Source of the DNA: an uncultured Clostridia bacterium
GTDB taxonomy: Bacteria > Bacillota > Clostridia > Oscillospirales > Ruminococcaceae
Reading direction: 5' to 3'
Assembly (NCBI GenBank): GCA_947631535.1
Contig: CANRLU010000012.1
Coordinates: 1-35,969, forward strand
DNA: 35,969 nt
In this document: in pieces, positions 1-25,267 of the stretch
Layout of the letters: each line of letters starts with the position of its first letter
How positions within the stretch are numbered: the stretch's first letter is position 1
Made by a program: the position numbers and the translations under genes
The notes under the pieces: generated by a model
What the model was told of the DNA's origin: nothing
Seen by the model: only the letters and a program-made list of their open reading frames with translations
Databases searched by the model: none

Positions 1-3000
1 CTTCGTGTTGTTGAACACGAATCCTACGGCCTCAGCAGGTGCAGTTATTGTCTTCTTCGCGGTAAGAGCTCCGGTCTCGGGATCGGCTGTTACTTCTACG
101 GTCACGGTGTAAACCGTATCGTCGTAGGTGTAACCGTCCTTGGCGTCGTTGACCTCGCGAATCGTGTAAGTGTACGTTCCAACCGTGTCGTAGGTTATCT
201 CGTCGAACGCGAACTTGCCTTCAGCGTCGTTGGTGACGGTCATCGTAATGCCGTCGGCGGAATCCTTAGGCATAGGTGCGCCGTCTTTAGCCGTCAGCTC
301 GAAGCTGAACTCGCCTGCTGTCAATGCAGCTTCTTTCCCGTCGGTGAATGTGAGATGTTTCTCACCGTCGAGGGAGAGTTTTGCGGGTGTGTACTTCTTA
401 TTTACGACTTCGACCGTTATAACTTCAGCGGTTCCTGCCTTCGAAGGCTCCGGAACGGTCCCCTTGGAGTTGGGCGAAATCGTCGAATAATAACCTTCGT
501 GACCAAGCTCCTTGAGCTCATATTTCGTGCCTACGGGTATGCCCGAAATAACGATCCTGTCGTTATGCTTAAGCGTGAAGCTGTACTTATTGCCCGTGAG
601 CGTAACGACCGCTTCTGCGCCGCCGTTGAGCTTGGTCACAAGTTTGTCGATGACCTTGCCCGCTTCGTCGGGAGTCAGGGTGAGCTCAAAGCTGAAGTCT
701 TCGGTGCAGTTTTCTTCACCGTCAACCCTCTTTGTCACCGCTATGGCTCCGGTCTCGGATTCGACTTCGTTGGAAGGAGTGGGATCCGGCTCGTCGCCTG
801 TCGTCAGGTAGCCGATGTTGGTCCATTTTGTGGACACTTCCACAAACGGAACCGTTGCCTTGAACGATACCTTCCGAGTTTCCTTTCCGCTTTCGCCTAT
901 CTTGATGTCTCCGAGCTTCCAGGTGAGCTCATTGCCCAACACCGTTACGTTTTCGGCGGGAACTGCCGAGTAGGCAACATATGTGAGTCCTGTGGGAACG
1001 GTATCCGTCACGGTTACATTCTTGACCGTTGCACCTACATCTCCGGTGACCGTCACGGTGAGCTCGTAGACTATAACGTCGCCGGGCTTGACGTCGAGCA
1101 TTTCCTTGGTGGGAACAGATTCGGGAACGTCGATTCTCTGAGTCTTCTCGATGCTTATTTCGGCCTTGAGAAGTTTGTTGTTGAATTCGACCTTGCCGCT
1201 TTTCGTCTCGGGAGTTATTGTCTTCGCTGCGGTAAGAGCTCCGGTCTCGGGATCGGATGTTACTTCGACAGTAACGGTGTAAACAGTGGTGTCGTAGATG
1301 TAATCGTCACTATCGCCGGCAACTTCTCTTATCTCATAGACATAAGTTCCGGGCTTGGTGAATTCTATAGGTCCGAAGCTGAACAAACCTTCGGTGTTGT
1401 TCTGAACGGCCGTCTTTGCGGGCATAGGAGCCTCGACTCCTTCGGGCGACTGTACGTTAGTAATCACGAAGTCGAACGGTACCGTCGAGGGTTTGCCGTC
1501 GAGGGTCTTAATACCGTCGATAGTAATCGAATCCGGCTTTATCCAACGGTTGGTGACCGTGACGGTGTTCACGGAAACGTCTCCGGCTGTTATTGTGCCG
1601 GTTATGTCGTCAAGCTTTACGAACCTGTCGTTCGGCGTTTCGCTGATCGTATACGTCGCTCCCGCGGGAAGACCGAATATAGTTACCGATTCGCCCGCCT
1701 TAAGAGTGAAGTTTTCCCCTCCGGATATAGTTTTTTCACTTTCTCCGTGCTTGATGACGTAATCTCCGGTGAGAGTGTCGCCGTTCTGGTCTCTAAAGGT
1801 GACCGTAAACGTAAATTCGGTATTAAGGATCTCGGGATCAAGGCTTTCGGAATCGGCTATCTGCTTCTCGATCTTAAGATCGCCCTTGCCTACCTTGTTC
1901 TCAACGGGGTTGGTGTCCTGCTCGTTCTCGTTGCCGACCTTTACGTGTGCTTTGTTCGTGATCTCTTCCTTTTCGACCGCGAGCACCGCATTTTCGTTGA
2001 CCTTTACCTTGAGGGTTACCGTGCCGCTGGATTCCTTCGCAGCGTTGCTTATGGTCCAGGTGACGGTGTGGGTACCTTTGTTATAGCTAATAGTTATGCC
2101 GCCTTCGGTTTTCTCGGTGACGTTCTCGGTGACGCTATCTCCCGCGTTAAGAACGAATTCTCCGACGCTCGCGCTTACGAAGTCAACGCCTTCGTCGAGC
2201 GTATCCGTTACGGTCACATCAGCAGCCGTGTTCAGGTCGTTATACCAGGTGATGTTGTAAGTGAGTTCATCGCCGACCGTTACGCTGCCGCCGTTGCCGG
2301 GAGCTTCTTCTTCCTTTTCAGGCTTATGAACGGGCCTGTTTCTGAACGTTACAACGGGTATGGCCTCGGAAGTCGTGTCTTTTTCGATTGTGCCGGTGCA
2401 GTTGTCGGGAGCGCTTACCACGTAATCTTCCGGCTTGCTCTCGCTTACGGTGTAAGTCGTGCCCTCCGGAAGTCCGGTAAAGGTTACGGTCTCGCCATGT
2501 CTGAGAGTGAAGGTTTCGCCGCTCTTTATAGTCTTGCTTTCAACGGTTACAATCTCACCGTTATCACCGACCTTGGTCTTGGTGTACGAATATTCTTCCT
2601 TGAGCGGCTCATCGCCGATGGTGAACGTTACCTCAAAGATGAATTCCTTCTCGGTGTCGATTGTCTCGCCGTCATCGACTACGACCTGCTTAGTGACCTT
2701 CAGGCTTCCCTTGCCTACCTTGTTCTCAACGGGGTTGGTGTCCTGCTCGTTCTCGTTGCCGACCTTAACGGACGCAGTGTTGTTCACGGTGTCATTCTTT
2801 ACAGCACTCTCAAGCACTTTGACCCTGAGCACAACCGTGCCCTTAGCACCGCTTGCGGCGTTCTTGATAGTCCAGGTGACGGTTTTGCCATTGTATTCGA
2901 TTACGAAGTTGTCACCCGTCAGAGTCTCTTTGCTGTTCAGAGACCCTTCTTTGTCTTTTACGCTCGCGCTTACAAATTCGACATCAGCGCTAAGCGTATC

Positions 3001-6000
3001 CTTGACGACTACATCCGCAGTTCCGGCGGTGTAGTTCTCCCAGCTTATCTCATAGGTGATTATGTCGCCTACCTTGACGTCGCCGTAGACAAGCGTTCCG
3101 TCGTCCTTCTTGTCAGGCTCGCCTTCTGCTGGGTTCTTTCCGCCATACTCAGTCTCCGTCTTCTTAGGCTCCGGTATGTCGCGGTTCGTGACAACTATCG
3201 CTATGTCGCTGTTTTCTGCGGTGATTGTACCGGTTATTTCGCCGCCGGCAACCAAGTCGGGAACTGCGACGCCTCCGACAGTCGCACCCTTGAACACATA
3301 GCCGTCGTTAATATTCTCGGTCTCGGTCACGGTGTACTTCGTGCCGACGGGCAGGCCGGTTATTGTGGCGGTCTGGCCGGCTTTGAGCCTGATCGTGCCC
3401 TTTCCTGCGCTGATTTTGTATTCATAGTTTGATTCGCCGGAAACGGTGTAGTCATAAGTGCCGGTCAAAGGCTCGCCCTTCGAATCAGTGAGGGTGATCT
3501 CAAACTCGAACTCGGCGGCAGCGTCTTCTGTTCCGTCTATGACCTTGGTGATCGACAGGCTTCCCTTGCCTACCTTGTTCTCAACGGGGTTGGTGTCCTG
3601 CTCGTTCTCGTTGCCGACCTTAACGGACGCAGTGTTGTTCACGGTGTCATTCTTTACAGCACTCTCAAGCACTTTGACCCTGAGCACAACCGTGCCCTTA
3701 GCACCGCTTGCGGCGTTCTTGATAGTCCAGGTGACGGTTTTGCCATTGTATTCGATTACGAAGTTGTCACCCGTCAGAGTCTCTTTGCTGTTCAGAGACC
3801 CTTCTTTGTCTTTTACGCTCGCGCTTACAAATTCGACATCAGCGCTAAGCGTATCCTTGACGACTACATCCGCAGTTCCGGCGGTGTAGTTCTCCCAGCT
3901 TATCTCATAGGTGATTATGTCGCCTACCTTGACGTCGCCGTAGACAAGCGTTCCGTCGTCCTTCTTGTCAGGCTCGCCTTCTGCTGGGTTCTTTCCGCCA
4001 TACTCAGTCTCCGTCTTCTTAGGCTCCGGTATGTCGCGGTTCGTGACAACTATCGCTATGTCGCTGTTTTCTGCGGTGATTGTACCGGTTATTTCGCCGC
4101 CGGCAACCAAGTCGGGAACTGCGACGCCTCCGACAGTCGCACCCTTGAACACATAGCCGTCGTCAATGTTCTCGGCCTCGGTGAGAGTGTATGTTGTGCC
4201 GTAAGGTATGTTTTCAACCGTGACGGTTTCATTGGCCTTGAGCGTGAAGGTGTAGGTGACGCTGCCGTCTTCATTATTTTCGGAAGTTGCCGACGGCGTA
4301 ACATCAACGATTTCAGACCATTCGGCGCCGACGACTGCAGGCGGCGTGAGAGTGAGCCTGAACTCAAATCCCGTGTTGTCGCTCTCTCCTTCTACGGTCT
4401 TCTCCACGGTGAGTTTGCCCGTCTTGTAGGTGTTCGTGAACTCGAGGTTGAGGATGCCGTCTGACGGCGATACGGGTTTGCCGCCCACAGTCACGCTCTT
4501 TATCTCAAGTTCATTGGCGACACCGTCATCGGTGACCTTTTCTCCGACGGTGACGACTATTCCCTTATTTGCAGCATAGATTATGCTTCCGTCGGACGTC
4601 TTGCGGGTTTCCGATACGGTGTACTTATACTCTCCTACTGCGGTGAATTCAATATTCCCAAAGCTGAAGCTGCCGTCTTCCGCATTGGTAACGATCATAG
4701 TCGTACCTTCTGCGCCTTCAGGCATAGGAGCGCCGTCTTCAGCGGTCAGAGTAAATTCAAATTCTCCTTTGGTGAGTTCAATTCTTGTTCCGGCTTCATC
4801 ATCATACTTGAAGATCTTGAGACCCTTGAACTCATCCTGTGCAGGCTCGCAAGGCTTATTCGTGACAACTATTGCTATGTCGCTGTTTTCTGCGGTGATT
4901 GTGCCGGTTATGCTGTTGTTTTTGCCAAGTACGGCATTTTCTTCGCCGACAGTCGCACCCTTGAACACATAGCCGTCGTTAATGTTCTCGGTCTCGGTCA
5001 CGGTGTACTTCGTGCCGACGGGCAGGCCGGTTATTGTGGCGGTCTGGCCGGCTTTGAGCTTGATCGTGCCTTTTCCTGCGCTGATTTTGTATTCGCCTTC
5101 CGATTCGCCGGAAATGGTGTAGTCATAAGTGCCGGTCAAAGGCTTTCCTTCCGAGTCTGTGAGGGTGATCTCAAACTCGAACTCGGCGGCAGCGTCTTCT
5201 GTTCCGTCTATGACCTTGGTGATGATGAGGCTGCCGGTGTAAACCTTGTTCTCAACGGGGTTGGTCTCCTGGACGGCGTTGGTGCCTACTCTGACCCTGG
5301 CGGTGTTCTCGACGATATGCGGGTCGTTCCCCTCCTTGATGGCGTCCTCGGTGACGCGAACGGTCAGGAGCACATATCCCTCAGCGCCGGATTCGGCGTT
5401 GGATATCTTCCACTCAATCGTAGTGCCCTTGTCGGCATCGACAGCCACATTTATACTGTTATACTTGCTATCAGCCTTCGTTGCGCTGCCTTCCTCAGGA
5501 TCGATATCCTTGCTTGTGACGACTATTTTGCTTGTGCCGTCGAACTTAGCATTGACGAACTCAAGTCCGCCTCTGAGGTCAAGAGTATCGGTGATTACAA
5601 CGTCTGCCTCGCTGGCTTCGTAGTTGTGCCATGTGATCTTATAGACGATCTCATCGCCGACCTTGACGTCGCCGTAGACAAGCGTTCCGTCATCCTCAGG
5701 CTCGGGCTCTTTATCCGGATCCGGCTTCTCTTCGCCGTAGGATTCCTCGGTCTTTTTAGGCTTCTCGGGCTCGCGGGAGTTGATGTACTCGACATTAATG
5801 ATAGAAGTTTCCTTGTTGGCGGTGATCTCGCCGGTCATCGTGTATTTATTGTCCTTAGGCGTGTAATCCGAGAATTCTACTCCGCCGCCGCTTGCGATGT
5901 TTTCGCTGCCGGTCTTGATATTAACGTCGAAATCTTCTTCGGGATCAAGCTCAGTGATCTCGAATGTAACACCTATAGGAAGCTTTTCGATCACGACTGT

Positions 6001-9000
6001 CCAGCCGTTCTTGAGGCTGATCTCATTATTTTCGTGCGTAAGCTTGCCTGCGGTATTGTCGGAATATCCTGCAATAGGGGTATATGCAGCTCCGGCGGGC
6101 GATCTCATCGGGACGCGCGCGCTGATGGGACTCGGAACAACTATATGGTAGTCAAACTGAAAGTTGTCAAGATATTCGCCGTTCTTTTTAAAGCTGAACT
6201 GGAACGTATACAATCTGTTGGTCTTGTCGCCCTCGGTGCCTTTTTCAACGGTCTTTTTGAGCTTCAGAGCCCCGTGCTGTTCGTAGATCTCAACCTTTTT
6301 GGAGTGTTCCTCGGGAAGCTCCTTGCTCGTGACGGTTCCCGTGTTGTCCCACTCGTCCTTGTCGGAATACGGAACGTTCACATCGAAGGTTACCCAGAAA
6401 TCATTGTTTTCGCCGACGGTAACCTCGCCGATAATCCAGGCTATCTCTCTGGTGTCTTCGTCGTAAGAGTATTCCACTATGCCCGCGGCGTCCTTAATCT
6501 CCTCGACGTTTTTGCCATACTTGCCGGAGCCGGAAACATACGTAAGTCCCTCGGGCACGGTATCGTGCACTACAACATCAGTGAGCTTGGCGCCCTTGTC
6601 GCCGCTTACGGTCACGTGGAGGTAATATGTTACTACGTCGTTCGCATCTACCTCGAAGCGATCCTGCGTCATCTCCTGCTCTGTGCCGTCGGCATGAACA
6701 GCGGACTGCCACTTCTCGATGTCGATATCTATAACGTGATTCTCTACCTTTGAAGTGTAGCTGCTGTCGTTATTGACCTTGACATGCGCGCGGTTGACGA
6801 CCTTGTAGTCATCGGCGCCGCCGGAAACGATATCGTCGGAACCGTCTGCATAATCCCAGACAAAGCGAGCCTTGTCATTTACGACTACCTCGAGCTCCAC
6901 AGAATTGCTTTCACCGGCTGCAGCAGCGATTTCCCAAGTTACGGTATGCGTTGCACTGTCGTAAGTAATTTTTACCTTATCCTTTTCTGTGCTGACATCA
7001 GCGCCATTGCTGCCTTCAAGGGCTACACTGCCGAGAATACTTCTTGCCCTTACGAAGTCAACACCTTCATCAAGCTTATCCGTTATGACTACGGTCGCGG
7101 GTTCGGTATAGTCATTGCTCCACGTGATATTGTAAGTGATGTGTTCGCCGATGCCGACTACCTTTTCTTCACCGGGAGAGGTTTCGGTCTTCTCGGGCAT
7201 GCGCTTAGGTCTGTTGAAGAAGTGCTCGCTCGCGCGTTCTTCGGTGATTTTGCCGCTTACCAGCGCATCGTCATTCGGCGTTGCGTTATCCACGGTCGTG
7301 CCGGTATATACAAGGTATTTGCCGTCGCGTACCTCGGTTACGGTATATGCCGCTCCGACAGGAATTCCCTTGAATATAATGTACTGATTATGCTTGAGCG
7401 TGAAGGTATATAAGCCGTCTTCGTCGTCTCTGGAGATTTTACGCGAAGCGAATAATGTATCCTTGCCATCTGCTATGGCATAAATATCTGCTTCTATCTC
7501 CATATCGATCGGCACGCTGCCATCGGTGAGATCGAGTGTGAATTTAAACTCATTTGCTCTGTCATCCGGGGATGCATAGTCGCCGAAGACAGTCTTATCG
7601 ACTCTGAGCTCGCCGGTCTTGCGGGTGTTGGTGCATATAACCGAAATGTCGGTCACAGAATCACCGATAGTGTACCAGCCGTCTACAGCTTCCAAAGTTT
7701 GCGTTTCGCCGTTAACCGTGACCATAACTGCAAAAGTGCTGTTAAAGTCTTTGCCGAATTCATCCGCAAACTCCTCAGTGATCATAAACCTTGTGCCGGT
7801 GGGGATCTTTTCGCTGATCACAATCTTTCCGTCTTTGCTGGAAAGGTCATGTGTCGTTTTTTCACCGTTATACTCGGTGGTGATCGTAAATCTGAACTTA
7901 TGCTCAGCGTCAGACGGCAGACCGTTTTCGATCAGCTTTTCAAGCGTGAGCTTTGTAACTTTTCTTGTATTCGTGAATTTAACCGTAATATTGGGCTCGT
8001 CTTCGGAGATCGTTCCGGTGTATTCTCTGCGCTCGGATTTTTCGCCGTTGATCGAAGTATCATACTTATTGTCCTCATCTTCTTCTACGGTGTAGGTCGT
8101 TCCGTAAGGAAGTTTCACGAATCTTACCGTTTCGCCGTTTTCGAGCGTGAATGTAACAGTAGTATCGCCAGCGGTGGACTCATCGTCTTCAACGAGCTCA
8201 TAAACAGACATTTTTGTTTCATCGTCTACTGTTTTCTTAAGATTGAGCTTCTTGCCGTCAGGCGAAGTTAAGGTTACAGTGAAGTTAAACTTAGCTTCCT
8301 CGCCATAGTCAACTCCGTTATTGTCAACGATCTTACTTACGCTGAATCCGCCGTTAGGAGTATCGTTTGTGACCCAGCTCGTGACATTAGGATTATCATC
8401 GACACTAACTGTAGCCCTATTCTTGACCTTGCCGGCAGGAGTTGCGTTGTGATTTACCCTGACTACAAGCTCTACGGTGCCGCTTGTGTTCTCAGGCGCG
8501 TCAAACGTCCATGTGACGGTGCGGGTTGCCTCGTCATATTTGATATTGACAGACACCGATTTATCTTTGATTGTGACATTACCTGTAGTATTTCCGGCTG
8601 CCTTAAGATTTACAGCATCCGTATAGCTTGCGCTTTCGAAGTCTACGCCAGGATCGAGCACGTCGGTGATCACGACAGACGCGGTCTTATCGGCAGTGTT
8701 AGCCCAGCCTATGTTATAGGTAATAGTGTTGCCGACTTCGACATCGCCGTATTTCGCTTCTACATCGCCGTCTTCCAAAGTGTCATCAGCGTAGTCAGTT
8801 TCGCTGTAAGTCGGATCTCCGGCATCTGAATCGTTGATCTTTGTTTCGGTCTTCTCGGGGACAGGGTTCTCCACCTCGGAGGTGACGATGCTCTTGTCGC
8901 CGATCTCAACTTCCGCACGGTTGACGACCTTGTAGTCATTGGTGTCCGCGCTGCCGGTTTCGTAAGACCAGGTCTTGACAGCATTCTCGTTGACCCTGAC

Positions 9001-12000
9001 ATTCAAAATCACCTTGCCGGCAGTGCCGGGAGCGACATTTGTAAGAGTCCAAGTGACAGTGTGAACATTGTCAACCTCGGTATAGGCAATGGTTATACCG
9101 TCTTTCTCAACCGAGTTGCCGGCGGTCTTTCCGGCCTCGAGCTCTACTCCGTTGTAGCTTGCGCTTACGAATTCCAAACCGATATCAAGCTGGTCGGTGA
9201 TAGTCACCTTCGCGTTTTTATCTTCGGTGTTGCTAAAGCTTATCTCGTAGGTAATTTCCTCGCCAACCTTGACCGGCTTATCTGCGCCGGGAACGGTCTC
9301 TTTCTTCTCGGTAACAGGGTTCTCGACCTTGGAGGTGTAACTGCTGTGCTCGCCAATCTGAACTTTCGCACGGTTGACTACCTTGTTGTCGTCGTCGGCG
9401 CCGACGACCGCGTCGTAATCCCAAGGCTTGAACGCATTTTCATTGACCTTGACGTTCAGGGTTACTTCGCCGGAACTGCCGGACTCAACGTTCGTGATGG
9501 TCCAAGTTACGGTGTAGAGTTTATTAACATCATCCTCGGTATAAGTGATGGTTATATTGCCTTCCTCAGCCTTGCCGTCAGCGTCATCCTTATTGAGCGT
9601 TACTCCGCCGTAAGAAGCGCTATCGAAGCTCACGCCAGGATCGAGCACGTCGGTGATAGTCACCGTCGCCTCGGCGTCGTTGGTGTTGCTAAAGCCGATA
9701 TGATAAACGATATCGTCTCCGACCTTGACAAGCCCATCCTCTCCGGGCTTCTCTTCGGTCTTCTCGGGAACGGGGTTCTCGACCTCGGTGGTGTATGCGC
9801 CCACGTTATCGACCTCGACCCTCGCGCGGTTGACTATCTTGTAGTCATTGGTGTCCGCGCTGCTGGTTTCGTAAGACCAGGTCTTGACAGCGTTCTCGTT
9901 GACCTTGACGGTCAGGACGGCATCGCCGTATCCGCCTGCGGGGACCTTAACGGCGTCATTGCCGAATGTCCAAGTGACGGTACCGTCTTTATATTCAACG
10001 GTAAGCGGCACTTTGACCGTACCTTCAACGCCATCGATATGTATATCCACTTCGCCGGAGGCAGTCGTGTTCTCAGTGTCAATCTTGACACCGCCGAAGC
10101 TTGCGCTCTCGAAGTATACGCCGTTGTCAAGCTGATCGGTGACGACTACCGTTGCGGGCTTGTCGTTGCCGTTCTTCCAGTGGATATTATAGGTCACGCT
10201 GTCGCCGACCTGAAGCGGCGCGTCTTCCTTATCGCCTTCTTCGGTCTTTTCGGGGACAGGGTTCTCGACAACAGCGGTAAACTGCGCGTCATCGTTGCCG
10301 ACCTTTACGCTCGCACGGTTGACGACTTCGTAGTCCTTGCCGGTGCCCTCAGCACCGCTGTCTTCACTCTCATTATAAGTCCATTTCTGAACTGCTTTCT
10401 CGTTGACTCTGACCTTGAGGATAACTTCGCCGGAAGAGTTTCCAGGAACCTTGACGCCCTTCTTTGTGATGACGCCGCCTTCTCCGACTTCGTCCTCTTC
10501 ACCTAATGTCCATACGACCCTATGATCGTCAGTATGAGCTTCAGCATCGTTATCATAAGAAGTATATGTGATCTTAACGGGCACGGAGACATTGCCGATG
10601 GTCACATAGCCGGTGTATTCCGTTGAAGCATAGTTGAGTATAACGTCGTCGCCCACTGATGCCTCAAGGAAGTCAACGCCGATGTCGAGCGGGTCGGTGA
10701 TAGTAACTACCGCCGGATTCGCGTTCTGATTCTGCCAGGTGATCTTATAGGTGATCTCTTCGCCTACGCCAACCTGGTTGCCGTTGCCGGGAGTTACTTC
10801 GGTCTTCTCAGGCTCGGGGATCTTGTTCTCGACGGTCTTAGTGCGGACGGTGCGAGAGTTGCCGACCTGAACATCGGCATAGTTATCGACCTTGTGCTCC
10901 TCCAATGCACCATCTTCGACCTTGACTCTGAGAATTACCTTGCCGGTAGCAGTCGGAGGAATGGGAGTTTGTTTTGACGATACGTAGAATTCCTGCTTGC
11001 CGGTGGAGGGTATCTCCTCGGTCGGGCTGCCGATCTCCCATATTACATACGTTACGCCGTCCCTCTCTCTGAGCCAGATATCGGCGAGAACACTATCTAT
11101 TGTGGCTGATTTGCCGTCCTCATCCGTATATTCGAGCGAGATCGTGCCGGAAGCATGCTTCTGACCGGCCTCAAGTGTTATGTCGCCAACTTCCGCCTCA
11201 TAGAACGAAACATTCTTATCGAGCGGGTCGGTGATGGTTATGACCGCGGGCTCCGCAATGTTGTTGCCAAAGGTGATCTCATACTCGATGATATCGCCGA
11301 CGTGGACAGCAGGGCCCTCCCAGAGATTCTTATCCGGATCATAAACGCCGTCGCCGCCGTCTTCGGGTTTAGATTTATAGTCTATTTTTTCCCCATTTAT
11401 GTGGGTCTCATTCTTGTCGGGTGTGCCGCACGGGTTGGTGACGATATTCGTGGTGTAGGAGTTATCGCCCACTGCGACGGTTGCGCGGTTGTAAAGAAGG
11501 TTGTCTTCTTCGTTTTCGCCTCCGGGCACGCCCTCGCCGCTGCCGGGACCGTAGGTCCACTTCTTCTCGGCCTTGTCATTGACCCTGACGGTCAGCGTGA
11601 CGACGCCGTAATCGCCATTTTTGACATTGCCGACATAACCTGCCTCAAAGTTGGGGCCGCCGACAGTCTCCGAGCCCTCAGAAGAGCTATCCTTAGACGC
11701 GTCGATAGACGATCCGATGATCCAGGTTACCGAACGTTTGACGGGATCATATTCGATATAATATGCATATTTGCCGTCGTCGGTGGTGCCGGAGAATTTC
11801 GGGTGAGTCTCCGTCACGCTACCGCTTCCGTAGACATAATTCGCCTTTGCGCCGTCGCCGGGAACCATGCCGGCCTTTACAAAGTCAACGCCCATATCGA
11901 GGAAGTCTGTTATCCTGACTTCGCCCGGCTCCTCGGTGTTATTGGCCCACTTTATCGTATAGGTGATCTCATCGCCGACGTTGACGGGCGGATAGAGCTC

Positions 12001-15000
12001 GGTGTCCTTGTTCTGCTCCGCGGCTTCGCCGTTGATCTCGGTCTCTTCCTTGAGGAGGTTCCAGGCGTTGTAGAAGTGACCTGCCTCCATCTTCATAGCG
12101 CTGCCTTTGGTCGCAGTATCGCCGCTCACGTAGTAATCGTGCTCGTGAGGCGTCTCGTTATCTTTAAAGGAAGCAGCAGTATATTCCGTCGTAGTGCTCT
12201 GCTGGACATGCTCAATCCTGCTCAGGCCGTAGCCCTGCTCGAGATCGTCGTCTCCGAGGTGCTCGACCAAAGCGTAGTTTGTGCCTGTCTGGAGCGAGTT
12301 GAAGAGAAGTCCCCAGCCGCTCTTGAGCCTTACGCTTGCGGTGTTCACAGCCTTTGCGCCCACTTCGGCAGGGAAGCAAAGCTCTGAGTCTTGCAGCTCA
12401 ACTTTTTGACCAACTTCTGTTGCTTTTCCTTCCTTGACGTCGTCTTCGGTAGCGAAGCGCTCGCCAAAGGGAACGGTCTCTCTCCAATACGCGCTGCTCG
12501 TGCGGTAGTCGGATTCGATCGTTATCAGGTCGGAAGTGCTGTTAAAGCTTACCTTCATAAGCTCGAGGTCGTGAAGAAGCAGAATATCCAAGGTTTCGGC
12601 ACCCTCGGGCTTTGTTTCCGAACCTATTCCTACCGGCCCGTCTTCGCTGATGGCTCTCGCTTTAGAGAATTCCGTATAAGCTTCCTCGTTGAAGAGCCAT
12701 ACATTATTTGCGAAGAACTTGACATAGTCGGCCTTGGATACCGAGTTCCAGTCGCTGAGCTTGTCGCCGGTGATCTCTGTATCTTTATTAGGATCGGCTT
12801 CAGGTGAACCTTCTTCAGGAGTATCTTCTTCAGAAGGGTCTTTTTCGGTCTTAGCGTTCTTGTAGAATTTGGCGGTTATATCGTCAAGACTTACGTTGCC
12901 GTTGCTGTCAACCGCGTCGTTGTGGAATACGCGCATACCAGTCGGAGGCGCATTGACAGTGTCAACGGTGTTGGCGTTGGAGCCGATGTAGACATAGAAC
13001 GGTCCGCTGACTTTGCTTTCGCCCTGCATCACATAATCGTCTTTAGGATCATACTCGCCGCTTCCGTCAGCATATTTATACTTATATTTATACTCGCCGT
13101 CGGCGTTAAGCTCTGCGCGGTAAGACTTTATCAAACGTTTGCCGTTGTGATCGACAAGCGCGAGGCTGCCGTCGCTCGTCTGGAGGAAGAGCAGACCGCT
13201 GAGCTCAAGGTCGATGTAGTGGAGCTGGCGCTGCCACTGCTTGGTCTCGGGGTTATATTTTACGACTATAGCCTGTTCGTCCTCGGTGAAGCCTTCGATG
13301 TATACCTGGAAGTCAAATTCCTTGTCGGGGTCGGCATCGGCGCCGGAAAGCGGACCGGCCTCAATGAGCTTGGTGAGCAAAAGCTCGGTGTCGTTAACTA
13401 TGAGTCGGCCGTTGTTGCCGAGGTAGACGTTAACTATAATGTCTTCCTCACCGGCCTTGGAGCTCGAGCTTATAGTCGGCAGATAGTAGTTGTTGGCCGT
13501 GCGGGTGATGTTATTATCATAGTAGCCCCAGATGGCATCTGCATAGTCGGGGAAGCGCGATTCTATATAGCTGGAAGAATAAGAATGTAACTCGTCGCCT
13601 CCCTTTTGCTGAACAGCCTGAGCAAGGCCGCCGACGCGCAGTCCGCCCGGTTTGGTGGCTACTACCCACTGGCCGTTATTAACCATATCTTGGTTAATGC
13701 CTGTGGTACTGCTCGGAAGGTCATTGGTCTCATCTTCGTCGTCAGGATTGCAGCCCTGATAGTATCCTGTAGTTTCATCAAGAGGATAGCCTATATATTG
13801 TCTGCCGCGGGTCAGATCCTTAGTCTCGGTATAAGAAAGGTAAGGATAATCAGGATATTTGTTCTCCGAAAGATCGTGCCAGACGAGCATATTGCCATTG
13901 GTGATACCGGAGGTATGATATGCCGAGCCGAACTCACTGCCCTTGCGGGTTATGACATACTGAACGCCGTTAGCCGCGCCGCTGTCGTTGGTGTAATATT
14001 CTATCGCGAAGAAGTAGTAACCATCGGACGGGAAGGGGTCTTTTTTAGTCTCGTCAGAGGCGAGATCATCATCAGAAGGACGCGTAACGTTATCGAGCCT
14101 GTCGGATTTGAGCAGGACGATATCGCCGTTAACGGGGTCTTCTTTTTTCAGCTCCTTAAGCTTATCATTGATAGCTTTTGAAGTATCGCCGGTATTGCTT
14201 GAAATAGTTACGCCTTCAAGATCCTGCGCTATCAGCCTGCCGCCGAACTCTCCGGGCAGGAAGGTGCGGGAATCGTTGCTGCTTTCCTCCTTTATCACAA
14301 CACGGCGCCACTGACCCTCATCTTCGGGCTTTTCTTTAACGAAAACATAGGCCGCATCATAAAGCGGGAGGGCTTTTTCAAAGATGTAATATCTGTTGTC
14401 GGTGCTGGGGGAGAACGAGACCATCGGGTCGCCGAAGGTGTAGTCGGTGAGGGTGGTCGCGTAGTCGCCGTAGCGGGCGGCAGGGGCATACCAGTTCGAG
14501 AAGAACTCAACACTGCCGAGATATACACCGCGGGAAGTCGCCGCGTCCTGAGTGTTGGCACGGTTTTGTGCAAGATATTCAAGGCTTACACCGGTGAGAT
14601 CGATGGAATGAGAGCCGTCGCTGTTTACCTTGATGTAGTCGTTCTCAATGCCGACGGTGTAGAACACTCTCAGCGGGAAGCTTGCTACATATGCCGGATT
14701 GACAACGGGCTTTTCGTCCTCCTTTAAGACTTCACCTTTTTCATCTTTCAGATACTGTTCGCAGTTGGTGGTGTATTTGGGATCATTCTGCGAGAGGTCG
14801 ATGGTTACGGTGCGCAGAGGGAGCATATTTACGGGAATGTTGATATAAAGTGCCTCATCGAAGTTGGAGTCGGTGTGCGAGCCGCTGTCTTCGAGCTTGG
14901 CGTCGCTGTAATCGCCGCTGTCCTCGACCCAGATCCTAAGATCCGAAAGCTTATATGCGCCGGGGGTGTTCTGATACTCTTCTTTCTTATAGTCGGTAGG

Positions 15001-17442
15001 GAAGGTCGTGCCGTAGGCAGGGTTCATTCTGACCTCGTCGCGGTCAACATTGCCGGTGGGGTTGATTATTCTCACCGTTTCGCCGGCGCTGTTCGTCGAT
15101 TCGCTGAGGATCTCATTATCTATACGGAAGAATCTGTATGTAGTGTGCTTGATTTTCTCGTCGGGGTCGTCTTTGGTGATTTCTTCCAGCGAGGGGACAA
15201 ACTGCACCGCAGTGTCGCTGTTAAGGCGGTATATCCAGCCCTCGGCCCAAGCTGCCGCAGAGGAACCGCCGGGAGCGTCGGCTCCGTCCCACTTTTCGGC
15301 GGTCGCGCCGTTGTCGCCGAGATACCAACCCTGTTCGAATTCTTTTTTACCGGCATAATCCTCGCCGTATTTGGCTCTGATATAATCATCGTTGAACTGC
15401 CAGTTGTATTCCGCGGTTTCAACAATGCCGTAGTAATGCCCGAAGAGGGCAAGGCCCTTTACGTCCTTGACCTGCATATATTTGCCGATAGGATCGACGT
15501 AGGTGACGGAGTCGTCAACGCCGAGGTCGTTGTTACCGGTAATAGGAGAGAAGACACTGCCGAGGAGCGACTGAACAATACGGTCGAGCAAATCGCTCAA
15601 GCCATCAAAGCCTGTCTGATAGTAGTTGTCTTCCGGCACGTAGTTGATATTCTCTATGATTTTTTCAACGGTTATTTTGCTGTGCCAATCGTTACTGCTA
15701 TACGCGCCGCTTTCGTTTGTCACTTGGTCTTTTGTGGTATTTAACTCGATGGTAATGTCATTTGTATTCGAAGCAGAACTTGTTGTGTGTTTAGTAAATT
15801 TATCAGTAACGCTGCCTTTGTCTTTCCACTCTTTGAACAGCTCATAAGCCGCGTCGATGAAAGCCTCTTCGGAATCTTTTTCTGCATCTAAATTCTCGCT
15901 GGTTCTATCAGACTTACCAGGATCGTCCTCAAAATATTTCTCCGGCCCCAGAATTGCATCGATAGTTGCTTTTATCTGCTTATCGTACAATTCTTCATAT
16001 TTTTTGTTATCACTTGCATATATGGAATAACAGCGCAGCGAAACAGGATTGCCCTCTCTGTCGCTGACATCTTCGTCGTTATAGTAAGCTTCAACGGCAG
16101 ATTTATAGTAAGACGCCGTCATAAGGGTCTGGAAAATAACGGGCGCAGCATCGCCGGTGCCGGTCAACTGGCTGGGGTTGTAATAGTTTTTGTCGCCCTC
16201 GTTCGCTTCAGTTCTCGGGCTGTTATATGCGAGATCATACTCCCAGTTGACATTGTTCCAGTTGCTCAGTACCTTTTCCCAAGCTTTGGCATTGCTATCT
16301 GTTGAGGCTGTGGGCTGTATCCATGCAAGGTCGCTCGCCTGACCGTCGGTCAGGTGGATAAGAGCGGGAATCCTAAGATATTCATCGCCCGTGGTAGTCG
16401 TCCATGTGCACTCATTATTGTCCTTGATGAACTGATCCATCGCGGCGGCAAAGCCTGCCTGCGGGTTGGTGATATGGCCGACATGATAGGGCTCGTCGCC
16501 CTCAGTATTTTTTTCTTTAGCTTTACCGTTGCCGGTTGTGTGACCGCCGGTGCCTTTATATGTACGGTTGCCGGTACCATTTTCTTCATCAATTTCATGC
16601 GCCTCGTTACTCGTTTCACCGGCGTTGTCGGCATAGTAAGTTATAGGGTCTCGACCTTCCGGCGTTACATTGGCTTCAATGGTAAAATGAAGTCCTTGCT
16701 TGTTGCCGTATTCTTCAATATACGTAGCCGTCAAACTGCCGTTGGTATAATGACCAAGCGGAACAAGGACAGCCGCGGTGGCGCCGTAAACGACAATACC
16801 GAAACGCGACTTAGGGTTCCCATTGATCAATTTTTCAATAGAATCATTTAACGCGGTTACTGTTTTATATATAGGGGAGGTATCAAAGTTATCTTTAGTT
16901 GCAACTTTTTCATCAGTGGGAATCTGACCCATTGAGCCGGATACATCAAGAACAAACATAACGTCATAGGGCTGCGGCTCATTGATTATCTGAGAGCTTG
17001 CGAGAGTTGAGAAGACATGCAAAAATCCGGAGTCGAGCGCTACTCTGCCCGAGAGTCCGTCATCTTCAGGTTCAAGTGTAAGGACATTAGAAGAGCTGTC
17101 CCAGTTACTGTCGCCGCCCTTATCGGCAAAATTATAGGCGAAGACCGTTTTATCCGACCACAGACGCCCGACATAACGCGTGTCGTTGGTAAAATCGAGC
17201 ATGGTCTTATAGGTGTCCATAGTGCTCGGGTCAGCCTGGCGCACAACGTTGTCAAGCACAACGGTTTTCGGCAGAGGAGCCTCGCTTTCGGTGCCGCTGT
17301 CTTCCGCAGGCGCTCCCGAGGGCACTCCTGCCTGCTCGCCCAAAGGCGCCGCAGCAACAACAACATCGCCGACCGTTGACATTATCATCAACAGGCTCAT
17401 AAGCAGCGAAACTATCCTTCTTAATACTCCGCTTTCTCTCAT
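1..17442 (-). CDS. Giant cell-surface adhesin-like protein, C-terminus beyond left window edge (>=5,814 aa in window): signal peptide, VWA domain, long stalk of DUF11-like, pilin-isopeptide-linker-like and DUF7601-like repeats
   Basis: ATG at 17442 preceded by GGAGG (17451-17455, 8-nt spacing). Translation starts MRESGVLRRIVSLLMSLLMIMSTVGDVVVAAAPLGEQAGVPSG, followed by QPYDVMFVLDVSGSMGQ (MIDAS DxSxS). It continues in one frame through repeated modules (e.g. VGDSVTYNIHWKN..ATVVVTDQLDNGVYFESAS..VTWTFGN; KTGKLTVEKTVEG..VENIPYGTTYTLTE) to GTYTYTIREVNDAKDGYTYDDTVYTVTVEVTADPETGALTAKKTITAPAEAVGFVFNNTK at position 1. No stop seen in the stretches I translated; all listed minus-strand ORFs here are in another frame. 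Confidence 0.93.
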   Translation of the reverse strand, partial: MRESGVLRRIVSLLMSLLMIMSTVGDVVVAAAPLGEQAGVPSGAPAEDSGTESEAPLPKTVVLDNVVRQADPSTMDTYKTMLDFTNDTRYVGRLWSDKTVFAYNFADKGGDSNWDSSSNVLTLEPEDDGLSGRVALDSGFLHVFSTLASSQIINEPQPYDVMFVLDVSGSMGQIPTDEKVATKDNFDTSPIYKTVTALNDSIEKLINGNPKSRFGIVVYGATAAVLVPLGHYTNGSLTATYIEEYGNKQGLHFTIEANVTPEGRDPITYYADNAGETSNEAHEIDEENGTGNRTYKGTGGHTTGNGKAKEKNTEGDEPYHVGHITNPQAGFAAAMDQFIKDNNECTWTTTTGDEYLRIPALIHLTDGQASDLAWIQPTASTDSNAKAWEKVLSNWNNVNWEYDLAYNSPRTEANEGDKNYYNPSQLTGTGDAAPVIFQTLMTASYYKSAVEAYYNDEDVSDREGNPVSLRCYSIYASDNKKYEELYDKQIKATIDAILGPEKYFEDDPGKSDRTSENLDAEKDSEEAFIDAAYELFKEWKDKGSVTDKFTKHTTSSASNTNDITIELNTTKDQVTNESGAYSSNDWHSKITVEKIIENINYVPEDNYYQTGFDGLSDLLDRIVQSLLGSVFSPITGNNDLGVDDSVTYVDPIGKYMQVKDVKGLALFGHYYGIVETAEYNWQFNDDYIRAKYGEDYAGKKEFEQGWYLGDNGATAEKWDGADAPGGSSAAAWAEGWIYRLNSDTAVQFVPSLEEITKDDPDEKIKHTTYRFFRIDNEILSESTNSAGETVRIINPTGNVDRDEVRMNPAYGTTFPTDYKKEEYQNTPGAYKLSDLRIWVEDSGDYSDAKLEDSGSHTDSNFDEALYINIPVNMLPLRTVTIDLSQNDPKYTTNCEQYLKDEKGEVLKEDEKPVVNPAYVASFPLRVFYTVGIENDYIKVNSDGSHSIDLTGVSLEYLAQNRANTQDAATSRGVYLGSVEFFSNWYAPAARYGDYATTLTDYTFGDPMVSFSPSTDNRYYIFEKALPLYDAAYVFVKEKPEDEGQWRRVVIKEESSNDSRTFLPGEFGGRLIAQDLEGVTISSNTGDTSKAINDKLKELKKEDPVNGDIVLLKSDRLDNVTRPSDDDLASDETKKDPFPSDGYYFFAIEYYTNDSGAANGVQYVITRKGSEFGSAYHTSGITNGNMLVWHDLSENKYPDYPYLSYTETKDLTRGRQYIGYPLDETTGYYQGCNPDDEDETNDLPSSTTGINQDMVNNGQWVVATKPGGLRVGGLAQAVQQKGGDELHSYSSSYIESRFPDYADAIWGYYDNNITRTANNYYLPTISSSSKAGEEDIIVNVYLGNNGRLIVNDTELLLTKLIEAGPLSGADADPDKEFDFQVYIEGFTEDEQAIVVKYNPETKQWQRQLHYIDLELSGLLFLQTSDGSLALVDHNGKRLIKSYRAELNADGEYKYKYKYADGSGEYDPKDDYVMQGESKVSGPFYVYIGSNANTVDTVNAPPTGMRVFHNDAVDSNGNVSLDDITAKFYKNAKTEKDPSEEDTPEEGSPEADPNKDTEITGDKLSDWNSVSKADYVKFFANNVWLFNEEAYTEFSKARAISEDGPVGIGSETKPEGAETLDILLLHDLELMKVSFNSTSDLITIESDYRTSSAYWRETVPFGERFATEDDVKEGKATEVGQKVELQDSELCFPAEVGAKAVNTASVRLKSGWGLLFNSLQTGTNYALVEHLGDDDLEQGYGLSRIEHVQQSTTTEYTAASFKDNETPHEHDYYVSGDTATKGSAMKMEAGHFYNAWNLLKEETEINGEAAEQNKDTELYPPVNVGDEITYTIKWANNTEEPGEVRITDFLDMGVDFVKAGMVPGDGAKANYVYGSGSVTETHPKFSGTTDDGKYAYYIEYDPVKRSVTWIIGSSIDASKDSSSEGSETVGGPNFEAGYVGNVKNGDYGVVTLTVRVNDKAEKKWTYGPGSGEGVPGGENEEDNLLYNRATVAVGDNSYTTNIVTNPCGTPDKNETHINGEKIDYKSKPEDGGDGVYDPDKNLWEGPAVHVGDIIEYEITFGNNIAEPAVITITDPLDKNVSFYEAEVGDITLEAGQKHASGTISLEYTDEDGKSATIDSVLADIWLRERDGVTYVIWEIGSPTEEIPSTGKQEFYVSSKQTPIPPTATGKVILRVKVEDGALEEHKVDNYADVQVGNSRTVRTKTVENKIPEPEKTEVTPGNGNQVGVGEEITYKITWQNQNANPAVVTITDPLDIGVDFLEASVGDDVILNYASTEYTGYVTIGNVSVPVKITYTSYDNDAEAHTDDHRVVWTLGEEDEVGEGGVITKKGVKVPGNSSGEVILKVRVNEKAVQKWTYNESEDSGAEGTGKDYEVVNRASVKVGNDDAQFTAVVENPVPEKTEEGDKEDAPLQVGDSVTYNIHWKNGNDKPATVVVTDQLDNGVYFESASFGGVKIDTENTTASGEVDIHIDGVEGTVKVPLTVEYKDGTVTWTFGNDAVKVPAGGYGDAVLTVKVNENAVKTWSYETSSADTNDYKIVNRARVEVDNVGAYTTEVENPVPEKTEEKPGEDGLVKVGDDIVYHIGFSNTNDAEATVTITDVLDPGVSFDSASYGGVTLNKDDADGKAEEGNITITYTEDDVNKLYTVTWTITNVESGSSGEVTLNVKVNENAFKPWDYDAVVGADDDNKVVNRAKVQIGEHSSYTSKVENPVTEKKETVPGADKPVKVGEEITYEISFSNTEDKNAKVTITDQLDIGLEFVSASYNGVELEAGKTAGNSVEKDGITIAYTEVDNVHTVTWTLTNVAPGTAGKVILNVRVNENAVKTWSYETGSADTNDYKVVNRAEVEIGDKSIVTSEVENPVPEKTETKINDSDAGDPTYSETDYADDTLEDGDVEAKYGDVEVGNTITYNIGWANTADKTASVVITDVLDPGVDFESASYTDAVNLKAAGNTTGNVTIKDKSVSVNIKYDEATRTVTWTFDAPENTSGTVELVVRVNHNATPAGKVKNRATVSVDDNPNVTSWVTNDTPNGGFSVSKIVDNNGVDYGEEAKFNFTVTLTSPDGKKLNLKKTVDDETKMSVYELVEDDESTAGDTTVTFTLENGETVRFVKLPYGTTYTVEEDEDNKYDTSINGEKSERREYTGTISEDEPNITVKFTNTRKVTKLTLEKLIENGLPSDAEHKFRFTITTEYNGEKTTHDLSSKDGKIVISEKIPTGTRFMITEEFADEFGKDFNSTFAVMVTVNGETQTLEAVDGWYTIGDSVTDISVICTNTRKTGELRVDKTVFGDYASPDDRANEFKFTLDLTDGSVPIDMEIEADIYAIADGKDTLFASRKISRDDEDGLYTFTLKHNQYIIFKGIPVGAAYTVTEVRDGKYLVYTGTTVDNATPNDDALVSGKITEERASEHFFNRPKRMPEKTETSPGEEKVVGIGEHITYNITWSNDYTEPATVVITDKLDEGVDFVRARSILGSVALEGSNGADVSTEKDKVKITYDSATHTVTWEIAAAAGESNSVELEVVVNDKARFVWDYADGSDDIVSGGADDYKVVNRAHVKVNNDSSYTSKVENHVIDIDIEKWQSAVHADGTEQEMTQDRFEVDANDVVTYYLHVTVSGDKGAKLTDVVVHDTVPEGLTYVSGSGKYGKNVEEIKDAAGIVEYSYDEDTREIAWIIGEVTVGENNDFWVTFDVNVPYSDKDEWDNTGTVTSKELPEEHSKKVEIYEQHGALKLKKTVEKGTEGDKTNRLYTFQFSFKKNGEYLDNFQFDYHIVVPSPISARVPMRSPAGAAYTPIAGYSDNTAGKLTHENNEISLKNGWTVVIEKLPIGVTFEITELDPEEDFDVNIKTGSENIASGGGVEFSDYTPKDNKYTMTGEITANKETSIINVEYINSREPEKPKKTEESYGEEKPDPDKEPEPEDDGTLVYGDVKVGDEIVYKITWHNYEASEADVVITDTLDLRGGLEFVNAKFDGTSKIVVTSKDIDPEEGSATKADSKYNSINVAVDADKGTTIEWKISNAESGAEGYVLLTVRVTEDAIKEGNDPHIVENTARVRVGTNAVQETNPVENKVYTGSLIITKVIDGTEDAAAEFEFEITLTDSEGKPLTGTYDYTISGESEGEYKISAGKGTIKLKAGQTATITGLPVGTKYTVTETENINDGYVFKGATVGEENAVLGKNNSITGTITAENSDIAIVVTNKPCEPAQDEFKGLKIFKYDDEAGTRIELTKGEFEFTLTAEDGAPMPEGAEGTTMIVTNAEDGSFSFGNIEFTAVGEYKYTVSETRKTSDGSIIYAANKGIVVTVGEKVTDDGVANELEIKSVTVGGKPVSPSDGILNLEFTNTYKTGKLTVEKTVEGESDNTGFEFRLTLTPPAVVGAEWSEIVDVTPSATSENNEDGSVTYTFTLKANETVTVENIPYGTTYTLTEAENIDDGYVFKGATVGGVAVPDLVAGGEITGTITAENSDIAIVVTNRDIPEPKKTETEYGGKNPAEGEPDKKDDGTLVYGDVKVGDIITYEISWENYTAGTADVVVKDTLSADVEFVSASVKDKEGSLNSKETLTGDNFVIEYNGKTVTWTIKNAASGAKGTVVLRVKVLESAVKNDTVNNTASVKVGNENEQDTNPVENKVGKGSLSITKVIDGTEDAAAEFEFEITLTDSKGEPLTGTYDYTVSGESNYEYKISAGKGTIRLKAGQTATITGLPVGTKYTVTETENINDGYVFKGATVGGVAVPDLVAGGEITGTITAENSDIAIVVTNRDIPEPKKTETEYGGKNPAEGEPDKKDDGTLVYGDVKVGDIITYEISWENYTAGTADVVVKDTLSADVEFVSASVKDKEGSLNSKETLTGDNFVIEYNGKTVTWTIKNAASGAKGTVVLRVKVLESAVKNDTVNNTASVKVGNENEQDTNPVENKVGKGSLKVTKQVVVDDGETIDTEKEFIFEVTFTIGDEPLKEEYSYTKTKVGDNGEIVTVESKTIKSGETFTLRHGETVTFTGLPEGTTYTVSESKPEDYVVSAPDNCTGTIEKDTTSEAIPVVTFRNRPVHKPEKEEEAPGNGGSVTVGDELTYNITWYNDLNTAADVTVTDTLDEGVDFVSASVGEFVLNAGDSVTENVTEKTEGGITISYNKGTHTVTWTISNAAKESSGTVTLKVKVNENAVLAVEKEEITNKAHVKVGNENEQDTNPVENKVGKGDLKIEKQIADSESLDPEILNTEFTFTVTFRDQNGDTLTGDYVIKHGESEKTISGGENFTLKAGESVTIFGLPAGATYTISETPNDRFVKLDDITGTITAGDVSVNTVTVTNRWIKPDSITIDGIKTLDGKPSTVPFDFVITNVQSPEGVEAPMPAKTAVQNNTEGLFSFGPIEFTKPGTYVYEIREVAGDSDDYIYDTTVYTVTVEVTSDPETGALTAAKTITPETKSGKVEFNNKLLKAEISIEKTQRIDVPESVPTKEMLDVKPGDVIVYELTVTVTGDVGATVKNVTVTDTVPTGLTYVAYSAVPAENVTVLGNELTWKLGDIKIGESGKETRKVSFKATVPFVEVSTKWTNIGYLTTGDEPDPTPSNEVESETGAIAVTKRVDGEENCTEDFSFELTLTPDEAGKVIDKLVTKLNGGAEAVVTLTGNKYSFTLKHNDRIVISGIPVGTKYELKELGHEGYYSTISPNSKGTVPEPSKAGTAEVITVEVVNKKYTPAKLSLDGEKHLTFTDGKEAALTAGEFSFELTAKDGAPMPKDSADGITMTVTNDAEGKFAFDEITYDTVGTYTYTIREVNDAKDGYTYDDTVYTVTVEVTADPETGALTAKKTITAPAEAVGFVFNNTK
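2701..3308. repeat. 608-bp direct repeat, copy 1 (period 855 bp) inside the giant adhesin gene
   Basis: Line-by-line comparison shows 2701-3308 identical to 3556-4163; first mismatch at 3309 (t) vs 4164 (c). Confidence 0.95.
3275..3553. repeat. Near-identical repeat with 4946-5224 (offset 1671 bp), in-gene module
   Basis: ccgacagtcgcacccttgaacacatagccgtcgttaat(a/g)ttctcggtctcggtcacggtgtacttcgtgccgacgggcaggccgg... shared with few mismatches. Confidence 0.85.
3556..4163. repeat. 608-bp direct repeat, copy 2
   Basis: Identical to 2701-3308; encodes a DUF11-like module plus the '..PEPKKTETEYGGKNPAEGEPDKKDDGTLVYGDVKVGDIITYEISWENY' linker. Confidence 0.95.
4946..5224. repeat. Near-identical repeat with 3275-3553
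   Basis: See partner repeat. Confidence 0.85.
15950..16980 (-). other. von Willebrand factor A (VWA) domain of the giant adhesin (approximate limits)
   Basis: PYDVMFVLDVSGSMG MIDAS motif near 16931-16970, followed by KSRFGIVVYGATAAVLVPLG and IPALIHLTDGQASD, typical VWA strands. Confidence 0.85.
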
Positions 17443-17483
17443 CTCTCATACCTCCAAAAGGACTTTATAAAAGAGCCGGCACT

Positions 17484-17504
17484 ACATTATTTGTATAATG
17501 TAGT
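17484..17504 (+). repeat. Left inverted repeat arm (IRL) of invertible element
   Basis: ACATTATTTGTATAATGTAGT, exact reverse complement of 17723-17743. Confidence 0.95.
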
Positions 17505-17658
17505 ACCGGAATAGCAGTCGGAGTGAGGGATAGTTCAATTTTAATATGCCGAAAAGAAAAAAGACATAATAACAACCCCCGTATGTAAAAATTTACCGCG
17601 AGGAAGTGTTCATTATGCCGAATATTGATTTAGGGAGTAATAAATTTTTCAAAAAATA

Positions 17659-17687
17659 TTGACATTTTCAGAGCTCTGTGATAAAAT
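17659..17687 (+). promoter_or_regulatory. Sigma70/SigA-type promoter inside invertible element, currently pointing away from the adhesin
   Basis: TTGACA (17659-17664), 17-nt spacer, TAAAAT (17682-17687), with an A/T-rich UP-like tract just upstream (17638-17658). Confidence 0.85.
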
Positions 17688-17691
17688 TGTG

Positions 17692-17720
17692 ACCGAATAG
17701 TTGATGGAAGACTATTCGGT
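17692..17720. promoter_or_regulatory. Stem-loop at the predicted transcript 5' end
   Basis: ACCGAATAG-ttgatggaaga-CTATTCGGT, 9-bp perfect stem, 11-nt loop. Confidence 0.7.
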
Positions 17721-17722
17721 TT

Positions 17723-17743
17723 ACTACATTATACAAATAATGT
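17723..17743 (-). repeat. Right inverted repeat arm (IRR) of invertible element
   Basis: ACTACATTATACAAATAATGT, exact reverse complement of 17484-17504. Confidence 0.95.
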
Positions 17744-17750
17744 TGTTATA

Positions 17751-18590
17751 TCACGTCCAGCTGGGAATAAGGCGAAGACTCTCGATCTGCCGGCGATGCT
17801 CTGCGCCGGAGGTCATTATATATATGCGCGTTGTGTTTATCGACGTGTGACCCAAGATATCCGCGAGCCGCGCGATATCTTTTTCTATGCTGTAAAATGA
17901 CCGCGCGAAAAGCTTGCGTAAGTTATGCGGAAACACTTTTGTCGGCATAACTCCTGCCCTAAGGCAGAGCCTTTTCATCGCGGTCCAGATATTTGAGCGG
18001 TCTATCGGGCGCCCCGAACGCGTTCGGAAGATTATTCCGCTCTTTATTTTATGCTTCCTGACGTAAGCGTTCAATTTTTTTGCGAGTTCCCTCGGTATTA
18101 TTATATTTCTGAACTTATTCTTGCATCTTACCGTGACCTCCCCCTTTTTTATCGTCTCGACCGTGAAATATTGCAGTTCCGATACCCTGATTCCCGTCGA
18201 GCAGATCGTCTGAAGAATCAGGCTGAGGCGTTCTGCGGTTCGGGCTGCATCGAGCAGGCGGATATATTCTGCTTTGGTGAGCTCCTTCTCTGCCGGACTG
18301 AAAAGCTCCTTCTGAGCTTTCATATAGCTCACCGTGCAATCCGGTCTGCCGATGAACTTCACAAAGCTGTTGACCGACGCCAGCATGGTATTGACACTGC
18401 CTGCGGTATATCGGCCAAGACCGATGAGATGGTTTTTGTAGCTGATGCAAAGTTCCTTTGTTATGGGCTCGCTGCCGGCAAATTCCAGAAAGCCCTGCAC
18501 ATCTCTGACGTATTTTGAAATCGTAACCGCCGATTTCTCTTCGCTGTCAAGATGCGCCTTGAATTCAGCGAGAATTGTGCTGTTAGTCAT
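17751..18590 (-). CDS. Tyrosine recombinase / phage-integrase family site-specific recombinase (candidate invertase for the adjacent switch)
   Basis: 279 aa; catalytic motifs CSTGIRVSEL (Arg), VRCKNKFRNIIIP (Lys hairpin), HNLRKLFARSFY (HxxR), LGHTSINTTRIYI (H..Y); N-terminal SAM-like core-binding region; GGAG at 18599-18602. Confidence 0.95.
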   Translation of the reverse strand: MTNSTILAEFKAHLDSEEKSAVTISKYVRDVQGFLEFAGSEPITKELCISYKNHLIGLGRYTAGSVNTMLASVNSFVKFIGRPDCTVSYMKAQKELFSPAEKELTKAEYIRLLDAARTAERLSLILQTICSTGIRVSELQYFTVETIKKGEVTVRCKNKFRNIIIPRELAKKLNAYVRKHKIKSGIIFRTRSGRPIDRSNIWTAMKRLCLRAGVMPTKVFPHNLRKLFARSFYSIEKDIARLADILGHTSINTTRIYIMTSGAEHRRQIESLRLIPSWT

Positions 18591-18646: not shown

Positions 18647-18675
18647 ATTATGAACAAAAAATCACAAAATGTCAA
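18647..18675 (-). promoter_or_regulatory. Promoter of the recombinase gene
   Basis: Minus strand TTGACA (18675-18670), 17-nt spacer, CATAAT (18652-18647). Confidence 0.75.
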
Positions 18676-25175: not shown

Positions 25176-25267
25176 TTGCTTTTCTCCTTTTAAATTTATT
25201 CTCCCACCGTGCAAAATGTATATTTATGAATTTTACATAAACCTTCGGCACGATACAAGTTGTAATT

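Follow-up and report, generated by a model that had tools for sequence, protein, structure and literature searches.

How does a promoter that points away from its gene keep that gene silent, and what does it do to the recombinase gene that it faces instead? This question is raised by a stretch of 35,969 nt from an uncultured Clostridia bacterium of the Ruminococcaceae (assembly GCA_947631535.1, contig CANRLU010000012.1), hereafter the window, in which a small element bounded by inverted repeats separates a tyrosine recombinase gene from the gene of a giant secreted adhesin. A first-pass annotation had read the element as a switch captured OFF, with its promoter firing antisense into the recombinase gene, and had suggested that the resulting RNA dampens recombinase expression and helps to lock the state. 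From the architecture of the locus (Table 1) and a survey of its relatives, we consider it very probable that this is a phase-variation switch, in which a recombinase-inverted promoter element controls the adhesin and the OFF state is silenced twice.

Table 1 Features of the switch locus in the window (promoters and terminators are predictions)
Feature	Position	Strand	Details
Target: giant secreted surface protein (adhesin)	1..17442	-	5814 aa or more, running off the contig; VWA followed by DUF11-type repeats; ATG at 17442
OFF-specific intrinsic terminator	17466..17509	-	Left repeat plus CCGG clamp (CCGG inside the element pairs with CCGG outside); stem 17509-17476, -21.7 kcal/mol; then tail CTCTTTTATA
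Left inverted repeat (recombination site)	17481..17505	+	Dyad ACTACATTAT-TTGT-ATAATGTAGT
Invertible element	17481..17746	.	266 bp with repeats, 216 bp between arms; inversion supported by oppositely oriented homologous loci
Sigma-A-type promoter, OFF, facing recombinase 3' end	17659..17687	+	TTGACA (17659-17664), 17-nt spacer, TAAAAT (17682-17687); TG before the -10 (extended -10); 11/12 matches
10-bp stem-loop, predicted 5' end of the promoter's transcript	17693..17719	+	Moves with the promoter; unconserved in the family
Right inverted repeat	17722..17746	-	24/25 match to left repeat; recombinase stop codon 4 nt away
Tyrosine recombinase, presumed invertase	17751..18590	-	279 aa; PF00589 and PF02899; adjacent-repeat arrangement conserved in relatives
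Recombinase's own promoter	18647..18675	-	TTGACA-17-CATAAT, 11/12 matches

The 25-nt repeat arms are complementary at 24 positions, with 0 such pairs expected by chance, and the left and right copies differ by a single base. No further copy of the repeat was found elsewhere in the genome, so a distant second switch using this site is absent. The inner promoter lies on the + strand within the element and is therefore directed at the 3' end of the recombinase gene. Its score is 18.1, compared with a mean of 10.1 for 500 dinucleotide shuffles of the element, none of which scored as well; promoter scores are consensus-based, and the shuffles control for composition only. The best minus-strand promoter within the element scores only 7.9. 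Between 17442 and 17746, the minus strand offers no promoter of note. The annotation had called the inner promoter the only strong one in the element, which holds, but had missed that the recombinase has a strong promoter of its own, with an equal number of consensus matches. The stem-loop with which the transcript is predicted to begin was considered as a conserved leader hairpin and rejected: of 53 leaders only 7 have z below -2, and the most extreme of all is that of the window.

Inversion maps position x to 35227-x and would place the -10 at 17545-17540 on the minus strand, with transcription starting near 17533 and 91 nt remaining before the adhesin ATG, in agreement with the earlier arithmetic. 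As the adhesin would gain this leader of about 91 nt only by inversion, the assembled locus is OFF. The term describes how the contig was assembled, and a single assembly does not give the state of the living population. At the level of sequence, the earlier observation of a promoter-bearing switch caught in OFF and aimed at the recombinase 3' end is confirmed, and inversion is backed by the oppositely oriented relatives described below.

In the proposed mechanism, the adjacent recombinase would invert the 266-bp element. When ON, the strong inner promoter would face left and drive the giant adhesin; when OFF, as assembled, it would face right, towards the recombinase 3' end. Silencing in OFF would have two layers: the promoter is directed away from the adhesin, and the left repeat, joined by sequence from within the inverton, would form an intrinsic terminator against read-through from the recombinase gene, which would itself be driven by its own promoter. 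A single inversion would both remove the terminator clamp and supply a promoter to the adhesin. After inversion, the best hairpin at the CTCTTTTATA tail has about -9.0 kcal/mol compared with -21.7 in OFF. We therefore infer that the predicted left-repeat terminator blocks read-through into the adhesin in OFF and is mostly removed by inversion; that the inner promoter fires and that the predicted terminators work is likewise deduced from their sequences. Outside the element, in the adhesin leader (17443-17475, minus strand), the GGAGG ribosome site sits within a hairpin, CTCTTTTAT...GTATGAGAG, whose 5' arm doubles as the T-tract of the OFF terminator.

The recombinase, which presumably acts on the flanking repeats, matches XerA, XerC and XerD profiles far better than tyrosine-type DNA invertase profiles. 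The nearest profiles are Xer-type, with no NCBIfam cut-off reached, and the fim-like tyrosine-type DNA invertases PRK09870 and PRK09871 score approximately 20 bits against cut-offs of approximately 220. Upstream of the relatives' recombinases, the promoter score exceeds that of the other strand in 117 of 194 cases; as this excess is weak, only the window's recombinase is credited with a strong promoter of its own. Directly upstream of the gene lies a 2100-aa secreted subtilase-like protein (18912-25214, minus strand; family assigned by eye from sequence), separated from it by a strong terminator at 18887-18854. A 44% identical recombinase is encoded on MT836497.1, a 10-kb phage-like contig from human faeces in a phage collection.

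The contig shows a single orientation of the element, so that inversion of the window copy itself is not seen, and the repeat has no second copy; inversion was therefore judged from relatives. The recombinase is present in 106 of 398 genomes of the same family and in 111 of 396 drawn from the order, two draws that overlap by a few genomes. Across this one bacterial order we examined 199 copies, 112 in a first set and 87 in a second, the latter mostly from other families and taken in order of similarity to the window's own enzyme. In 144 of the 199 (83/112 and 61/87), the stop codon of the recombinase is followed by an inverted-repeat pair, while 15 copies in the first set and 11 in the second have no detectable pair despite ample downstream sequence. 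The dyad cores of the relatives vary in a compensating manner (for example ACATTAT/ATAATGT, ACATAAT/ATTATGT and ACAAAAT/ATTTTGT). The direction of each promoter was assigned from the scores of the two strands, and in most called loci the promoter lies 20-60 nt from the repeat that it faces. All counts that follow come from loci that share ancestry and are not independent.

Both orientations occur among homologues. Homologous invertons with opposite promoter calls aligned inverted in 12 of 12 comparisons and those with like calls aligned collinearly in 51 of 52, an agreement that independently validates the calls. In the clearest case, L116 and L121 (OFF) and L122 (ON) have one target in common, which lies 64 nt downstream and is a BTAD-type regulator; L116 and L122 also share their flanks. 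Within 350 nt of the recombinase, a contig end lies downstream in 27 cases and upstream in 7, several of them exactly at a repeat, and an excess of downstream ends is expected if both orientations are in the sample. OFF loci outnumber ON loci 49:12 in the first set, 45:11 in the second and 94:23 in total; by genus, the majority state in the first set (37 genera) is OFF in 30 and ON in 5. What an assembly shows is the majority orientation, so these counts make OFF the usual resting state, whatever its cause, and part of the excess may reflect which orientation assembles.

The switched targets in relatives are diverse and include surface proteins, SPFH proteins, helicases, the BTAD regulator, a CheW protein and a glycosyltransferase. 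A ResIII/DEAD-type helicase, unusual for an invertible promoter, is the switched gene in L042 and L133 (identified by domain scan) and in L043, L045 and L085 (similar by eye). In L049 and L050 (domain scan) and in L052 and L055 (by eye), the switched gene encodes an SPFH (Band 7) protein that also has a zinc ribbon. In six loci (L091, L088, L094, L098, L102 and L105) the first recombinase is followed by a second, distant one (27-34% identity), which sometimes replaces the target gene. In L074 (G042, contig C19), two identical recombinases face each other around an element of approximately 263 bp inside a 603-nt inverted repeat, an arrangement that might be an artefact, produced when a switch occurring both ways round was assembled.

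Terminators in the relatives were called by consensus; dinucleotide shuffles and, within each locus, the mirror-image position served as controls, the shuffles for composition only. On the recombinase side, at or near the stop codon, an intrinsic terminator pointing in the antisense direction, hereafter the guard, is present in 71 of 144 loci compared with approximately 9 expected from shuffles (41/83 in the first set, 6.0 expected; 30/61 in the second, 3.2 expected). The mirror position on the target side has such a terminator in only 8/83 and 8/61 (paired tests, p = 1e-7 and 6e-5). The guard's T-tract begins before the recombinase stop codon is reached in 59 of the 71, and in 41 the recombination site itself lies within the hairpin. 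Such a terminator, for which the recombination site often supplies the sequence, would end the antisense transcript of the OFF promoter before or at the recombinase boundary in about half of the relatives. An outward terminator is also found at the promoter-distal end of the element, in 39/61 loci of the first set (10.4 expected) and 35/56 of the second (7.0 expected), compared with 5/61 and 6/56 at the promoter end; it would stop recombinase read-through into the target in OFF.

The window departs from this arrangement: at its right repeat no hairpin passed at the thresholds used, and the repeat forms its hairpin without a T-tract. Among relatives whose recombinase is full-length, the nearest is L013/L008, from the same genus; it is OFF and carries the guard, ACGACATTATACAGATAATGTCGT followed by TTTTTATG. 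L004, also of that genus, is ON and its recombinase is truncated at the N terminus; the T-tract is present, and no hairpin there is above the cut-off. As the window has neither a T-tract nor a passing hairpin, its lineage has probably lost the guard. Within the recombinase gene, the antisense strand also has hairpins that resemble terminators, which were not counted as guards; they lie in coding sequence and some of their T-tracts are poor.

Against this background, the antisense lock put forward in the first-pass annotation, by which the OFF promoter's transcript would enter the recombinase gene antisense, lower the recombinase level and stabilise OFF, appears unlikely. It does find some footing, given that the window's right repeat, at the thresholds used, presents the + strand transcript with no strong terminator, that relatives are far more often OFF than ON, and that orientation-dependent control of a recombinase is known for E. 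coli fimE, through a Rho-dependent terminator (PMC9993118). As a general mechanism, however, it is disfavoured, because a terminator placed to stop such RNA is so frequent among relatives and because guarded loci are more OFF-biased (OFF:ON 53:7) than unguarded ones (41:16; Fisher p = 0.036, from loci that are not independent), the reverse of what a lock predicts. In the window itself, where no guard was detected, a short antisense RNA over the recombinase 3' end is possible. Among the papers searched, none on antisense transcription at invertible elements matched every aspect.

The predominance of OFF is better accounted for, on balance, by a preference of the recombinase for ON-to-OFF inversion, as in FimE, or by costly expression of the target, with no feedback on the recombinase. 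The excess is seen with and without a guard, extends over many genera and unrelated targets, and has a precedent in FimE-biased switching (PMC9993118); against it, the window's two repeats differ by one base only. That same mismatch in the right repeat, and the single orientation in the contig, could also mean a fossil switch that has ceased to invert in this strain. This we regard as very unlikely, as the recombinase is intact, the repeats remain identical at 24 of 25 positions and both orientations exist among relatives.

The phase-variation switch that we favour for the window may, with somewhat better than even chances, belong to a portable insulated cassette found across the order. Such a cassette would consist of a recombinase, a guard that often uses the recombination site as its hairpin, and an inverton carrying a promoter and, at the opposite end, an outward terminator, placed before varied and unrelated targets; the guard would spare the recombinase gene antisense transcription, and the cassette would rest mostly OFF. 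For a giant surface protein, the window provides a phase switch that is intact and can be tested. Its relatives suggest a design rule in which one site is both recombinase target and transcription terminator, insulating the recombinase from the switch's promoter. With the window as a natural unguarded copy beside guarded relatives, the role of antisense transcription at such switches can be tested directly.

Among described systems, the Clostridia inverton group 139, statistically linked to a nearby tyrosine recombinase (invertase group 35), likely represents published relatives of this family, as judged by description rather than by motif (PMC11892184). Its cited example has repeats of approximately 26 bp that lie approximately 206 bp apart, resembling those of the window's inverton family in length and spacing, whereas the parts of PMC11892184 drawn on here mention neither guard terminators nor an OFF bias. 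The C. difficile cwpV switch, inverted by RecV, likewise silences a large surface protein in OFF by an inversion-dependent intrinsic terminator (PMC5386303), but it has no promoter of its own, whereas here the promoter is inside the element; RecV also serves several switches, whereas the recombinase here adjoins its presumed switch. A close parallel in layout is the E. coli fim switch (FimB/FimE), in which a tyrosine recombinase gene adjoins an invertible promoter of approximately 300 bp upstream of an adhesin, with fimS carrying both the fim operon promoter and the Rho-dependent terminator of fimE (PMC9993118). In both, one orientation links a terminator in the switch, here a predicted one, to the transcript of the recombinase (PMC9993118; PMC5386303). 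The window differs in having one recombinase instead of two, repeats of approximately 25 bp instead of 9 bp, terminators that are predicted to be intrinsic rather than Rho-dependent, and a recombinase that is Xer-like by profile and far from the tyrosine-type DNA invertase profiles. By analogy, the locus is a further case of the known promoter invertons and would work like the fim switch.
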